In this document: piece after piece, positions 18,189-26,020 of the stretch
Position numbering within the stretch: position 1 is the stretch's first letter
How the letters are laid out: the number at the start of each line of letters is the position of its first letter
Source: Candidatus Aramenus sulfurataquae
GTDB lineage: Archaea; Thermoproteota; Thermoprotei_A; Sulfolobales; Sulfolobaceae
NCBI GenBank assembly: GCA_000565255.1
Contig: ASRH01000003.1
Coordinates: forward strand, 124,001-188,000
Direction: 5' to 3'
Length of the DNA: 64,000 bases
The notes under the pieces: model-generated
What the model was told of the DNA's origin: nothing
The model's database searches: none
The model's input: the letters and a program-made list of their open reading frames with translations, nothing else
Made by a program: the position numbers and the translations under genes

Positions 18189-18968
18189 TCTAGACTAGAG
18201 AACAAGAGGATATCCATAATAAGCGCAAAGGGCGGAGTAGGTAAGTCAACTATATCTTTACTTCTGGGAAAGGCGCTAGCAGAGCTAGGAGATGACGTCT
18301 TAATCACTGACAGGGATCCACTTGCTTACGTTTCTAACGTTTTCGGGGTAAAAGGTCAAGGAACAATTCAAAGCGTGGTGTAAGGCAAACCACCCAGGGA
18401 TTGCGTTAAGACTTTGGGGAATTTGTCCGTCTTAAAGTGCTTTGACCAGGGGCCTAGATACATAGTTGACCTAGAAAAGCTGTCTAAGTCGCAAGAGCTG
18501 TTAAATAAGGCTTATAATACTTACTTGGCTGCAGTGCTTCAAAAAGACTACAAGTTTTACGTTGTGGATAATCCTTCCTTGGTCCTCGTTGAAGACCCAA
18601 TAGTGGAAATGGAGTTAAACGCCTTCTTAAAGGTAAAGCCTAAGGAGAACGTTGTGAGGATCTACGTTACTGACCCAATAGATTACACTATAAGGCTGAC
18701 GCTAGAATACCTTGGTAGAATGGAGGAAAGTAAGCCAATAGGTAAGCCTTACGCCCTTATAGTAAACCTCGTCCCTCCATTTAAGGACGTTCTGGAAAGA
18801 ACGGAGATAAAGTTGAAGGAAATAATTTCTGAAAAGGGGCTTGAAGAAGGAGCTATCATACCGTTTAGCGAAGAATTGTTTAATTTATCATCCGCAGACG
18901 TGAAAGTACCGGAAGAAGTAAAAATACTTGCCTTAAAAATAAAGGAAAAGGCTAGACAATCATCTTAG
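18189..18968 (+). pseudogene. ParA/MinD-like ATPase broken by an in-frame stop and lacking a start codon
   Basis: One continuous frame reads ENKRISIISAKGGVGKSTIS (a deviant Walker A motif), runs to an in-frame TAA at 18381-18383, then continues without a shift into 190 more codons that include YVVDNPS, a Walker-B-like segment. No ATG, GTG or TTG lies between the upstream stop (18186) and the Walker A motif. The half downstream of the TAA could be re-initiated at TTG 18414 but would lack the P-loop. It is read as a recent pseudogene of a ParA-type ATPase. Its end overlaps the MMPL gene by 17 bases. Confidence 0.75.
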
Positions 18969-21900
18969 GCCTTATCTTGAAAGCCTTGTAGAGTATTACA
19001 AGCAAAGACGGTGCTAGGAAGTACCATAACACAGAGGTCTCTAGGATGGCAGCAACGGCCAGAGCGAATCCTATCTCTTGGAGAATAGCGGCGTTAACGA
19101 GCATTAGGGATCCCATAGTACCTGCGAATATTAGCCCTAGGAAGAGAATTGTCCTACCTATCGACTTCCTCGCTATTTCAACGGCCTCTTCCATGTCCTT
19201 TCCCTTGTCCAATTCTTCGTGGACTCTAGCTACCAAGAAGATGTTGTAATCCATACCAATTCCTATTATTATTGCCACCAAGAACAGCGGAACTATAGCG
19301 AAAATTGAGTAGCCTAGCTCGGTAAATATAAGCCTCTCAAGCCCTAGTGTTATTGCAACTGCTGACATTATGGTAAAGATAATTACTCCGGATACCGAGA
19401 ACGACCTAGTCATGACCACAAGGATTACGTACATTGTGATTGTGATGAGCAAGAAGATCTCCGCGAAGTCGGTGTTTACAAAGTTAAGTATGTCGTAGGC
19501 GTCTACTGGTCCGCCTCCAACGTAACCTCCCTTGCCCACAGCTGAGAGCACTTGTTTTACTACATAGAACGCGTTGTTGGAGAAAGGCGGATATTTCTGG
19601 TTTACCACAAACAACATGTGTCCATCTGCCAAGTACTGGGTGTAGTTATACTCTGACAAGTTTTGGTAAGGTACTAGTGAGCCAAAGGGGGACACTGGAG
19701 AGTTCACAGCTGTTACCCCTTGTATGGAGGAGAGCTTTTCGTAAAGCGAGACGGCGTAGTTGTAGGTGCTCAAGTTAAACGTTCCGTTTATCGGGACTAC
19801 TACGTATATTGGGAACACGTTATCTGTTGTGAACTGTTGACTCAGTATGTTAACTCCCTGCGTTGCCTGGTTTGGAGGGAGGAGGTCTAGTACGTTGAAG
19901 GTCAGTGGCGTGCTTACGGCATATATTGCCAAGACCACTACTACAGCTGTTATTATCCCCACGGTAAGCCCTGGTCTAGATACCTTGGACTCTTCCCTAT
20001 TATTCTTCTTTGTGAACTTCCTGGGGAAGAACAGTTTGTCCCCAAGGGCTGAGAGCACTGACGTGTAAAGGGTTATCGACGCTATCCACACTACGAGGAC
20101 TGCCAGCATCTCGGCCAACGCTGTGTCGGAGAAGAACGGGACGTTATAAACGTAGAGGAACAGGAAGGATAGCATGACGACTAGGGCAGTGATAGTAACA
20201 GCCCTACCGCCCCACCTTACCGCCTCCTTCACTGCCTCTTCTTTGCTCAGTCCTTTCTCCCTCTCTTCTATGTACCTGCCAGAGATGAAGACCACGTAGT
20301 CTGTACCTAGGCCCAATGCGAGGAGTAGTACTTGGCTTGGCGTCAAGAAGTCCACCGTAATGTTGAGTAGTTTGATCACCACAGCGTAAATCACCACGGA
20401 CGAGGCGAGGTAGGCTGCTAAGTAAGTCCCCAAGGGGGCAAACGCCGCAGTTATGGATCTAAAGTAAATTCCCGCTAGGATTATGGCCAAGGCTATGCCA
20501 ACGGGAATTGCGATGGAGAAGGCAGAGTTAGCGAGGTTCTTAAGGGAGTGGGATATTGGTTCCGACCCGGTAAGGTAGGTGCTCAAGTGGGTTACGTTCT
20601 TGACGTAACTTTCAAGGTTCTCTGCCTCCTTGTACGTGAAGTTGCCCTTCAGCACTAGGATGTAAAAGCTAGAGGAATAGAGGTCCTTGGTAACGTTCAA
20701 GTTCGGCTGTATTGGAAAGAGGTTTTCGGCTATGAGCTCGTTAACCACTTTCTGGACGCTCGAGTTAGTGGTGAGCATTGAGTAAAGTACTTGTTTTAAC
20801 TCTACCTTGTCCACTGTTATTAATGGAGTAGAGTTTACAACGTTAGAGATTAGGATTGAAGAGACGTTTGAAGCTTTGTCCCAGGTGGCGTTTATGAGGT
20901 AAACGGAGATCTCCTTGGGCGTTATGTTGGACCTATTGAGCAGGAAACTGAGCTTTCCAAGTTTGGAGGAAACTAGATACGCAGTTAAGTTGCCGTAGTC
21001 GTGGGACGTAGCTAGGCTAACTAGGAACCACGCAGGTATAGTTGAGTTCGCCTCCTTTGACGCCACGTAGTTCAAGAACTGTGTGTAAGAGGTGAAGTTT
21101 GCAACCTCGGCTACCACTTCAGGAGATACGTTGGACACATTGCTAACGTATTTCACGGCAAAGTCAAATGAAGTGACGTTTATGTTATTATAGACGTCCT
21201 CTAGGAACTCCCTTTCTTGCGTGGAGTTAACCTTGCTCTGGAGGACTTGGAGAGAGAGGTTAAGGTAATCCGTACTGGAGTAGACCTCGAGGAGCAATGG
21301 TATGGAAATCCCAGTCTTCTCGTGGTAGAAGTTGAGGACTAAGGCTAGCGGGACTGATCTATTGGTCGTGTAAAGCTCCTCTGCTATCTCCAAGGGTACA
21401 TGGTAGGTTTGATTGAAGTAGGTTGTGACGAACTCCTCGTAAGGCTCAGGAGACATGAAGTTGGTCACGTTGAAGAACTTGAACATTGCGTCAACCAGCG
21501 CGAGTTCGGTCTCGTTATTGCGGAAAAACGCGTAGCTTGCCTCGTGCACGCTCTCGTCTGCAACTCCAAACGGGGCAGACTGGTTCTCAGGGAAGGAACT
21601 GAGCGTTACGTAGTTCGCAGTGGTGTTCCAAAAGTGGAAGAACTCTTGGAAGAATTCCCTGGCAATCGGGTTGCTAATGCTCTTGTTAACGTAAGTAAAG
21701 GCGTAGTAGTTGGACAGAAAGACGTTGTGGTAGGTTGGGAGGGTGGAGTTATCGTAAAGCGATATCCACACCTTAACGAAGTAGTACTGCGCTTGGAACA
21801 ATAAGGCTGAAAGGTTACTAACAGAGGAGTTCAGATCAAGTTCGCCTTCCATTACTTTATTGAAGGCAGTGACGTTCTCCATCATGCTCTTATGAAGTCC

Positions 21901-22449
21901 CGCTACAAGCATAGAGGTGTTTAGCAGTTCTTGCTTGGCATTATAGAAGTTCCCCTCCACAGCCCTAGTGAAGTTGCTCAGTTTCTCTAGCTCTTGGACG
22001 CTTGAGTTAAGCTTGAGGGACTGGTTCTGAAGCTTCTTCTCTATTTCAGTCTCGTTTTGGCCTAGGATGTAAAGCTGACGAGTCAAGTTTAGCGCTGTTG
22101 GGTAAACCTTACTTAGGGAGGAGTTAAGAAGGGTCTTCTCTATACTGTAGAAACTAGTCACAGAAATGTTGCCGTAAGAGGTGAGGTTTGAGAGGAAAGA
22201 GGAATAACTTGACGCGTTCCCCTCTATTAGGATTATCCCATTTGCCGCCGAGACGCCTGATAACTTAAAGTGCGAGACGAGTTCTTCTGCCTTATGTGAC
22301 GTACTCCCTGGTATAGATATAGCCACTTGGTAGCTTACTGATTTAAAAAACAAAGAAGAAAGGGGAGCGGAAAAGACCAAGACTATAACCCAAGCCACAA
22401 GAAGTACGTACCACCTTTTCGAGACTGTCTTCGCAAGACCGTTGAACAC
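18952..22449 (-). CDS. Large MMPL/RND-superfamily membrane transporter
   Basis: At 1165 residues this is the largest gene in the window. It has one N-terminal membrane helix, then about 600 extracytoplasmic residues very rich in N-x-S/T sequons. Next come a six-helix MMPL block (about 645-830), a second extracytoplasmic loop (about 850-980) and a second six-helix block to the C terminus. RND/MMPL proteins export lipids or hydrophobic compounds using the proton gradient. Conserved transmembrane residues appear in [18 protein letters not shown] and [17 protein letters not shown]. The substrate is unknown. The start is GTG at 22449. Confidence 0.85.
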
Positions 22450-22527: not shown

Positions 22528-24165
22528 ATGGATTATAACGACCTCTTTAAGGTAAAGCCTGTATCAGACTACGACGTAAAGGATGGAAAGGTTGCGTTAG
22601 TCGTGGAGGAAAAGAAACCGGTAGTCCACGTGATGGGAGAGGGGAAGGTGGAGGGGGACTTTTACGCAGACGAGGTTAGTTGGATAGACGTCAAGAGACT
22701 CGCAATAGTGGGAGACCCCAATGGAGGGGAAAAGAGGGAGATATACTTATTTGACGGTACCCTAACCCCCATTCTGAAGGACAATTACGACAACTTTTCT
22801 CCTTTGTTTATAGGACAGGATAAGTTCTACTTTCTCTCAAACAGGGAGGGGGAGACGATTCATCTCTACTTATACGAAGGGGGCGAGATAACGAGGATAA
22901 GCAAGGGGAAGGAGCCGGTAAGCAACCTTTGCGTCTCGAGTGGCGGAAGGAAGGTAGCGTACTCTCAGGGAATTTACGACGACGACGTGCATTTAGTAGA
23001 CGTTGAAACTTGGGATGAGGAAGTAATAGGGTTCAAGAGTTCAGAGGAAGTGCCAGCCTCCTCGGAGTGCTTTACCTCTGAAGGCGTAATCTTCCTAAGC
23101 AACAGGGACAACTTCTTCGACGTGGGAGAGTACAGGGGAGGGAAAATAAGTTGGCTGAGGAAGTCCAGTTGGGATAAGCTAGAGGCTCTCCTCTTTAACG
23201 GAGAGCTAGCGTACGTAGAGGACGTAGTAGGAGACTTTAAGCTCATTTTAGGAGAAAGGGAGGTGGTAAGCAAGGGCTACAACAGGGAGCTTAAAGTGGA
23301 CCAGGGGTACTTGTACTTCCTTGGTTCCTATCACGGTCGTTTTACCGATTTGTACAGAGTAGGGAAAGATGGGGTAGTCGAGAGGCTCAGCGACTCCATG
23401 CAGGGAGTCTCAGGGGACTTCGTGGAACCCAAGAAGGTAAGCTACGAGTCGTTTGACGGGACTACAACACACGCCCTCCTTTACGCTAGGGGCAACGAGG
23501 ATCGCGGGGTGGTATATATTCACGGAGGGCCTGACTGGGAGTGCGTCAATTCCTTCTCGCCTACCATACAGTTTTTAGTAAGCAAAGGCTTCAAGGTCAT
23601 CTGTCCAAATTACAGGGGATCAACGGGATTTGGGAGGAAGTTTAACCACATGAACGACGGCGACCTGGGAGGGGGAGACCTAAAGGACGTAGTCTTCTCT
23701 ACGAAGGTTCTAGGCGTCAGAAAGATAGCTATTACAGGCGCTAGCTATGGGGGGTACTTGACCATGATGGCAGTCACAAAGTATCCAGACATCTGGTGTA
23801 GGGCCGTGGCTGTGGTGCCTTTCGTAAACTGGTTTACTGAAAAGCAGTTGGAAAGGGAGGTCTTAAAGCAGTATGACGAAGTGAAGATGGGCAACAATCC
23901 TGACCTCCTAAGGGATAGATCGCCTATATTTTTCGTGGACAGGATAAAGACCCCTCTATTGCTCTTAGCTGGGGAAAACGACCCGAGGTGTCCCGCAGAA
24001 GAAACGCTTCAAGTGGTGAATAAGCTAAAGGAGAGAGGGGTGGAAATAGAGTACACAATATATAAGGACGAGGGGCATGGTTTCTCGAAGATCGAGAACT
24101 ACGTCGACTCAATAAGGAAAACTGTGGAGTTTATAAGTAAATGTGAGGAGGAAAATACTAGATGA
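22528..24165 (+). CDS. S9-family serine peptidase (acylaminoacyl/prolyl oligopeptidase type)
   Basis: The 545-residue protein has an N-terminal beta-propeller (about 1-290) and a C-terminal alpha/beta-hydrolase domain. The nucleophile is Ser406 in GASYGGY, the acid Asp485 in AGENDPR and the base His517 in EGHGF. The HGGP oxyanion motif lies near residue 334. Such enzymes release residues from short or acylated peptides. The stop codon TGA at 24163-24165 lies inside the predicted box C of the C/D box RNA that follows. Confidence 0.9.
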   Translation: MDYNDLFKVKPVSDYDVKDGKVALVVEEKKPVVHVMGEGKVEGDFYADEVSWIDVKRLAIVGDPNGGEKREIYLFDGTLTPILKDNYDNFSPLFIGQDKFYFLSNREGETIHLYLYEGGEITRISKGKEPVSNLCVSSGGRKVAYSQGIYDDDVHLVDVETWDEEVIGFKSSEEVPASSECFTSEGVIFLSNRDNFFDVGEYRGGKISWLRKSSWDKLEALLFNGELAYVEDVVGDFKLILGEREVVSKGYNRELKVDQGYLYFLGSYHGRFTDLYRVGKDGVVERLSDSMQGVSGDFVEPKKVSYESFDGTTTHALLYARGNEDRGVVYIHGGPDWECVNSFSPTIQFLVSKGFKVICPNYRGSTGFGRKFNHMNDGDLGGGDLKDVVFSTKVLGVRKIAITGASYGGYLTMMAVTKYPDIWCRAVAVVPFVNWFTEKQLEREVLKQYDEVKMGNNPDLLRDRSPIFFVDRIKTPLLLLAGENDPRCPAEETLQVVNKLKERGVEIEYTIYKDEGHGFSKIENYVDSIRKTVEFISKCEEENTR

Positions 24166-24210
24166 GGAGATGAAAGAACTGAACGATGAGGAACCGTGTT
24201 TCAGCTGACT
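24160..24210 (+). ncRNA. Probable C/D box sRNA guiding LSU rRNA 2'-O-methylation
   Basis: All four boxes fit archaeal spacing: C (ATGAGGA, 24162-24168), 10 bases, D' (CTGA, 24179-24182), 3 bases, C' (ATGAGGA, 24186-24192), 12 bases, D (CTGA, 24205-24208). The C boxes differ from RUGAUGA only at position 5. The D guide ACCGTGTTTCAG is complementary to UGAAACACGG, a conserved large-subunit rRNA segment, over ten bases plus one G-U pair. By the five-base rule the target is the middle adenosine of GAAAC, the site methylated in yeast by snR39/snR59 (from memory). The D' target is unknown. Box C overlaps the peptidase stop codon. Confidence 0.75.
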
Positions 24211-24282
24211 TTTGAAAAAGTTTTTAACGCGTGATTCCCACCTCGCTTCATATGCGTTATCCGTTCTGTGAGAGGAGAAGAA

Positions 24283-25206
24283 ATGACGATATCAGTAAAG
24301 GGGCTAGTTAAGTACTATGGAAATAAGGAGGTGTTAAAAGGCGTTTCGTTGACGGCGGAAAGGGGAGCAGTAACGGCTGTCTTGGGACCTAACGGTGCCG
24401 GTAAGACCACAACCATTAGGATAATAATGACCCTCATCTTCCCTACGAAGGGCGAGGTTTCAATCCTTGGTCAAGACCCCTTCAGACACAAAAAGGTCTT
24501 CAGGAAGGTCGGATACGTCCAGGAGTTGCCAAACTTACCACAGTTCCTTACTGGTAGGGAACTACTGAGGATGAGCAGTAAAATAAAGGGTGCAAGCAAG
24601 GAGGACGTGGATAGAGTACTTAAAATAGTAGGGATGGAGGAGAACGCCGACAAGAAGATAGCCAAGTACAGCAAGGGCATGACTCAGAGGATAGCTATAG
24701 CTGAGGCCCTCCTTGGGGACCCAGAAGTGCTGGTAATGGACGAGCCAAACATAGGCACCGACCCTGTGCTCAACTACAACATGAGGGAGACGTTGAAGGA
24801 GATGAAGAAAGAGGGAAAGACCATCTTAATGACAACGCACGTCTTGGAGGACGTGAAGAAGGTGGCTGACAAGGTCTACCTGCTCTACCAAGGTAAGGTG
24901 TTCTTCGAGGGCACTCCAGAAGACCTCGTGAAGAAGTTCCTTGGGGTAGTGGTGATAACGGAAGCGTCAAACGTGGAGGTGGCGGAAAGATCGCTTAAGG
25001 AGTTGGACTACGTCAGGGGATTTAAGGTCGAAGGGAACAAGCTAGTGATCAGGCTCAGCGAGGATAGGAGGGAGGAGCTCTTGCATTACTTGGTGACTTC
25101 GGGCGTAGGGATTAGGTCGTTTTACCTCGACCAGGAACTAGAGGAGGCCTATATAACGGCCCTAAAGGAGGCTGAGAAGGTTGATAGAGAAAATAGTAAC
25201 CTATGA
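24283..25206 (+). CDS. ABC transporter ATP-binding protein
   Basis: The ATPase has Walker [10 protein letters not shown] (about residue 40), signature [10 protein letters not shown] and Walker B VLVMDEP. The usual LGLD after the Walker B is replaced by IGTD. The chosen ATG at 24283 has the purine-rich GAGGAGAA directly upstream; an earlier GTG at 24268 would swallow that site. The C-terminal 80 residues follow the DrrA/CcmA-type layout. The permease gene starts 26 bases before this gene ends, so the two form a drug- or lipid-type exporter. Confidence 0.9.
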
Positions 25207-26020
25207 AATAAAGAGGGCAGTGGCGAGGAAGAAGGTCATCACTATAATAGGGATAACGTTGCTCTTTGAAGTAGGGGTTTACGTTGCCCTCTCGCAAGTG
25301 AAGACTCCCAGAATAGAGACAATCCTAGGGCCTATATCCTCGTTGTTATGGTTAGTTGGAGTCCTTTTGCCCCAGAGTCTGTTACTGCATTTTATTACGA
25401 TTTCAATTTCCTCTGGAGCCCTATCCGAGGAGTACGAACAGGGTACTGTGGACTTCTTCCTCACTAAGCCGATAACGAGGTTGCAGTTCCTCACGGGAAA
25501 GTACTTGGGAGGTTTTCTTCTAGTTACGTTAGTGTACGCCTTTATGGTCTTTCTCTCCTTGATGCTCTCAGAGTTGCTTTTCGGATCCCAGATAGACCTA
25601 GGATACTTGCCAGCGCTCTTCCTGTCGGTAGAGTTCTCCTCCCTTACGTTCTTCTCCATAGCATTCATGATAGGCGAGGTCTTAAGGAGGAGCAGTCTAG
25701 CCTTTCTAATATCTAGCACCGTCCTAATAGGTTCAATACTTATAGGGACAGTTCTGGAGTTCGTGAGCAGGCTGACTGGGTCTTCCATTTTCACGTCTAT
25801 AGCAATAGCCCTCCCTGCCTGGGGTGCAGTGGAGCTCCCCTACATATACGCCCAAGGCATACCTAACGCATCGCTTATAGTTCAGGCTTTGGAGATCTTT
25901 CCCGCGATCTCTGGCACGGAGATAGAGGCTATAGCCTACGTTGTACTATACTCGGGGGTGTCGACAGTGTTAGCCTTTGTGAGTTTCCTAAATAGGGACA
26001 TTCCTAAGAGGGTAAGCTAA
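25181..26020 (+). CDS. ABC-2 type transporter permease
   Basis: The 279-residue protein has six predicted membrane helices with the [20 protein letters not shown] amphipathic segment typical of ABC-2 permeases between the second and third. It starts with TTG inside the end of the ATPase gene (26-base overlap), indicating translational coupling. Two copies would pair with two ATPases as an exporter. Its substrate is not evident. A perfect 16-base palindrome follows the stop immediately. Confidence 0.85.

Follow-up and report, generated by a model that had tools for sequence, protein, structure and literature searches.

The window, i.e., the whole 64 kb stretch of DNA analysed here, belongs to a 1.8 Mb genome (G000) and contains a peptidase gene whose 3' end runs into a group of four short boxes and two guide-length intervals arranged as in a box C/D sRNA. 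The features of this locus are the following:

22528–24165, forward strand: S9 (prolyl oligopeptidase family) peptidase, the host gene (PF00326, E = 1.6e-45)
24130–24136, forward strand: TATA-like TTTATAA, a possible own promoter of the sRNA inside the peptidase gene
24160–24210, forward strand: approximate predicted ends of the RNA, with a putative AG/CU terminal stem around boxes C and D
24162–24168, forward strand: box C, AUGAGGA, the same in the congener G001
24169–24178, forward strand: D' guide, GAUGAAAGAA, 10 nt, rRNA target not secure
24179–24182, forward strand: box D', CUGA
between 24182 and 24186, forward strand: D'-C' spacer of 3 nt, ACG
24186–24192, forward strand: box C', AUGAGGA (GUGAGGA in G001)
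24193–24204, forward strand: D guide, ACCGUGUUUCAG, 12 nt, pairing with 23S UUGAAACACGG
24205–24208, forward strand: box D, CUGA, with a pyrimidine (Y) at position 2 in relatives

Two neighbouring features were also noted. The reverse-strand gene at 18952–22449 encodes a 1165-aa membrane protein that appears RND/MmpL-like by eye, and directly 3' of box D lies GAAAAAGTTTTTAA (24214–24228), an archaeal BRE/TATA-like sequence that is the apparent promoter of the genes for an ABC transporter (viz. ATPase, 24268–25206, and permease, 25181–26020).

Archaeal C/D guide RNAs are recognized by their boxes C/C' (RUGAUGA) and D/D' (CUGA), which permit the G·A pairs of kink-turns, by guides of about 10–13 nt and a fixed distance from D/D', by pairing with rRNA of the same organism that includes the N+5 nucleotide, and by a fibrillarin gene in the genome. 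All four boxes in the window fit RUGANGA or CUGA, both guides (10 and 12 nt) fall within the expected length of about 10–13 nt, and the spacings of 10, 3, and 12 bases described in the earlier note are present exactly as stated. The overlap with the peptidase gene described there is likewise found, the stop codon TGA (24163–24165) being the UGA within box C. A degenerate pattern of the four boxes, searched on both strands of the 64 kb, has a single match (24162–24208), and no four-box match was obtained in 100 windows simulated with an order-1 Markov model. The putative terminal stem comprises just 2 bp, and RNA folding of the linear strand is uninformative (z = −0.18).

The D guide finds its complement, UUGAAACACGG, in the organism's own 23S rRNA, which carries CGUCUUGAAACACGGGCC around the target; the duplex of 10 Watson-Crick pairs and one G-U pair is that anticipated in the earlier note, and the nucleotide designated by the five-base rule (N+5) is A675 in the organism's own 23S numbering, the central A of GAAAC predicted there. 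Equal pairing anywhere in the 16S or 23S rRNA was reached by 30 of 2000 shuffled D guides; hence, the pairing constitutes modest evidence by itself and strong evidence when the boxes and their conservation are added. The target segment is unchanged in all 13 of the archaeal rRNAs where it was read, and it is also found in eukaryotic 28S rRNA, where it is the site of the standard 28S primer GACCCGTCTTGAAACACGGA. A675 presumably corresponds to A807 of yeast 25S rRNA, and the target of snR39/snR59 is presumably the same conserved LSU segment as that of the window's D guide. Methylation of yeast A807 is guided by snR39/snR59 (PMC5295604). These RNAs are methylation guides as well, differing in that they are eukaryotic snoRNAs, intron-encoded in RPL7A/RPL7B.

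The best rRNA match of the D' guide is at 23S 661–672, which overlaps the D target by two bases, with a score of 7.9 for the 12-nt extended guide (the best across 16S, 23S, and 30 of the 45 tRNAs). This score is equalled by 161 of 3000 shuffles in the region ±100 nt around the D target, and the match is therefore a hint of a second target. The half from box C to box D' is conserved between two congeners only, and when the family was searched for a paralogue from which it could derive, the matches were no more than chance would give, their number being close to that obtained with the reversed control.

Both C boxes have G at position 5, the U-to-G change that had been pointed out earlier and that is retained in the C' box of G001 (GUGAGGA). 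This G faces U2 of box D, forming G-U in place of the usual U-U, and in relatives the corresponding pair is G-C; the change is not alarming for a guide RNA. In the families f7 and f8, C boxes with G5 occur together with CCGA boxes D (L014, L015, L104, L106, and L107), and a C box with C5 occurs together with CGGA (L016). These pairable combinations, which were read by eye, lend support to the box register. Also by eye, position 5 of box C and position 2 of box D appear to covary in these two families (U occurring with CUGA), and Watson-Crick pairs would thereby replace the U-U pair of the kink-turn.

The conservation of the second half of the gene extends well beyond the genus. The pattern CGTGTTTCARCYGA is present in 17 of 214 genomes of the order (reversed control: 1), and a sequence profile of the 23-nt C'-guide-D half matches (E ≤ 0.01) in 49 of 229 genomes of the class, representing 24 of 87 genera. 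Across the order N-CCGUGUUUCA-R is conserved, the box-guide-box spacing of 12 nt is retained in the aligned relatives, and the guide itself does not vary save for the form CCGUGUUUAAG, in which several families (L102, L103, L105, L109, and L110; also G060 and G195) have A for C close to the D box; the third base of this form, counted from that box, would not pair with UUGAAACACGG. A compensatory change in the 23S rRNA was considered and rejected, since the 23S of both G060 and G195 retains UUGAAACACGG; the CCGUGUUUAAG guide is thus mismatched near the D box. Between the window and G001 there is one difference in 24145–24208, a purine-to-purine change in box C', vs. 23 in the surrounding 360 nt. 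The earlier note had named as grounds for rejecting the gene the lack of a match to the guide in this organism's 23S rRNA and the lack of conserved boxes in close relatives; the match is present and the boxes are conserved.

No Rfam family matches the window at its gathering cut-off. The sR9 family (RF01312), for which this cut-off is 36 bits, gives an alignment of 18.2 bits (E = 0.17) at 24182–24236, in another register, and three Saccharolobus-type copies of the gene score above the cut-off. The guide N-CCGUGUUUCAG, the box spacing and the predicted 23S site are common to Saccharolobus-type sR9 and the window; the guide occupies the D' half in sR9 and the D half in the window, and their other guides are unrelated. 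The presence of the guide in these sR9 copies indicates that the window gene is an ordinary guide RNA carrying a known guide. The weak sR9 alignment would also suit a different register, in which the conserved half represents box C-guide-D', as in Metallosphaera, with boxes C' and D lying beyond 24208. However, neither CUGA, CCGA nor a C' box is found at the required downstream places, where the stretch is promoter-like, for the next gene, and a good box C and box D' lie upstream at archaeal spacing; we regard this register as very unlikely. The low Rfam scores could likewise be expected if the boxes were a chance arrangement in the 3' end of a peptidase gene, where UGA stop codons ease the formation of kink-turn boxes. 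The simulated windows, the target in the organism's own 23S at the right register, and the occurrence of the half-module in other genera all argue against such an origin, which we consider extremely improbable.

At the 3' ends of orthologous S9 peptidases from other genera no remnant of the sRNA was found, and most of these proteins are shorter by a few residues at the C-terminus, which indicates that the sRNA is a lineage-specific arrival; the stop codon now used by the peptidase may have come with box C. As far as the account of Tripp (2017) given in PMC7994747 extends, about 25% of archaeal C/D genes overlap the 3' end of an ORF, nearly half of the ORF-overlapping genes have the stop codon in box C, and sRNAs of this kind need no promoter of their own. 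On the frequencies in that account, the stop codon in box C is an ordinary arrangement, and nothing notable in it separates the window gene from other sRNAs overlapping the 3' end of an ORF. The motif TTTATAA is centred 24–27 nt before the predicted 5' end of the sRNA, a distance that would suit a promoter; it lies in codons, a relative without the sRNA (L005) has TTTATA there, and coding constraint may explain it. Release of the sRNA by processing of the 3' end of the peptidase mRNA is plausible and would match known practice.

We conclude with high confidence that this locus harbors an archaeal box C/D sRNA, shaped like a double guide and about 50 nt long, which would originate from the 3' end of the peptidase transcript and guide fibrillarin to A675 of the 23S rRNA. 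A gene for fibrillarin is present in the same genome (PF01269, E = 5.7e-101). The probable source of the sRNA is the terminal portion of that transcript, cut back to the sRNP, an internal promoter also being possible. The C/D kink-turn and the C'/D' kink-loop would be the binding sites of L7Ae, Nop5 and fibrillarin would assemble on the L7Ae-bound sRNA, and upon pairing of the D guide with its 23S segment fibrillarin would methylate the ribose of A675.

The place of this guide (guide A) within the sRNA differs among relatives, an aspect that goes beyond the first reading and was missed there. Guide A is in the D (3') half in the window's genus (g1) and in the D' (5') half in Metallosphaera (g10), as well as in two other Sulfolobaceae genera (g5 and g3). 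Metallosphaera and Saccharolobus-type genomes are among the relatives of G000 in its family, and the name Metallosphaera was assigned through loci identical to those in records of M. javensis and M. yellowstonensis. In a 23S tree g1 is the sister of Metallosphaera (support 98/99); hence, it is simplest to suppose that the order changed in the lineage of g1. In other families of the order, guide A is paired with a guide B whose predicted site is exactly 20 nt downstream, and both orders occur, viz. A-B in f7 and B-A in f2, f3, and f5, the B sites of the latter three being predicted on 23S from other families. In f6, guide A is 5' in one copy and 3' in others, and for the B guide of G060 a second site, some 127 nt downstream, gives a better fit. 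Family f8 has the order A-B, with a displacement of guide B by 1–4 nt. The window gene has lost guide B, and its own rRNA differs at the B site. Tentatively, these genes may form one orthologous family in which a pair of targets 20 nt apart has been kept and the order of the guides has flipped repeatedly, g1 having flipped after its split from Metallosphaera.

The change in g1 may possibly have been a circular permutation of a Metallosphaera-type sRNA, by which the old C'-guide-D half would have moved to the front of the gene, ahead of the old C-guide-D' half. The opposite placement of guide A in sister genera, with its D' location shared by g5 and g3, agrees with such an event, as does the occurrence of the same guide pair in both orders elsewhere in the order; moreover, some Metallosphaera copies have as their C' box AUGAGGA, the very sequence of the first box C here. 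A precedent is the "circular rearrangement" of Methanopyrus kandleri sR88 vs. sR39/sR119, in which a guide moved between the D' and D halves (PMC4644070), the difference being that those are paralogues in one genome, whereas here apparently orthologous guides are concerned, in sister genera and across families. However, homology of the first-half spacer GATGAAAGAA to the second guides of Metallosphaera was rejected, 980 of 2000 shuffles of it being as alike, and thus it is the change of place of guide A that is established and permutation of the whole RNA is unproved. An independent origin, with guides convergent on a conserved target, would fit the differing genomic neighbors among genera and the view that convergence is common for archaeal guides (PMC4644070). 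Nevertheless, most copies with the guide at full length have in common a G beside the D box, though A would pair equally or better, and the 12-nt spacing is also common to them. Shared descent explains this common G, which forms the G-U pair, and the common spacing more simply than convergence, and we consider an independent origin unlikely.

The box C/D sRNA reported here comes from a little-studied genus of Sulfolobaceae and is a well-supported methylation guide, overlooked by Rfam, with a conserved site in the LSU rRNA as its predicted target. The gene is ordinary in kind, and the change in guide order is the point worth following, as it presents a clear case in which the order of archaeal C/D guides changes and their targets stay. 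If the flipping suggested above is true, the sRNA gene behaves as if it were circular, perhaps via circular sRNA or tandem-copy intermediates, and it would also relocate to new 3' ends of genes. The case therefore bears on the movement of C/D genes and on the question of whether permuted genes can be a legacy of circular sRNAs.
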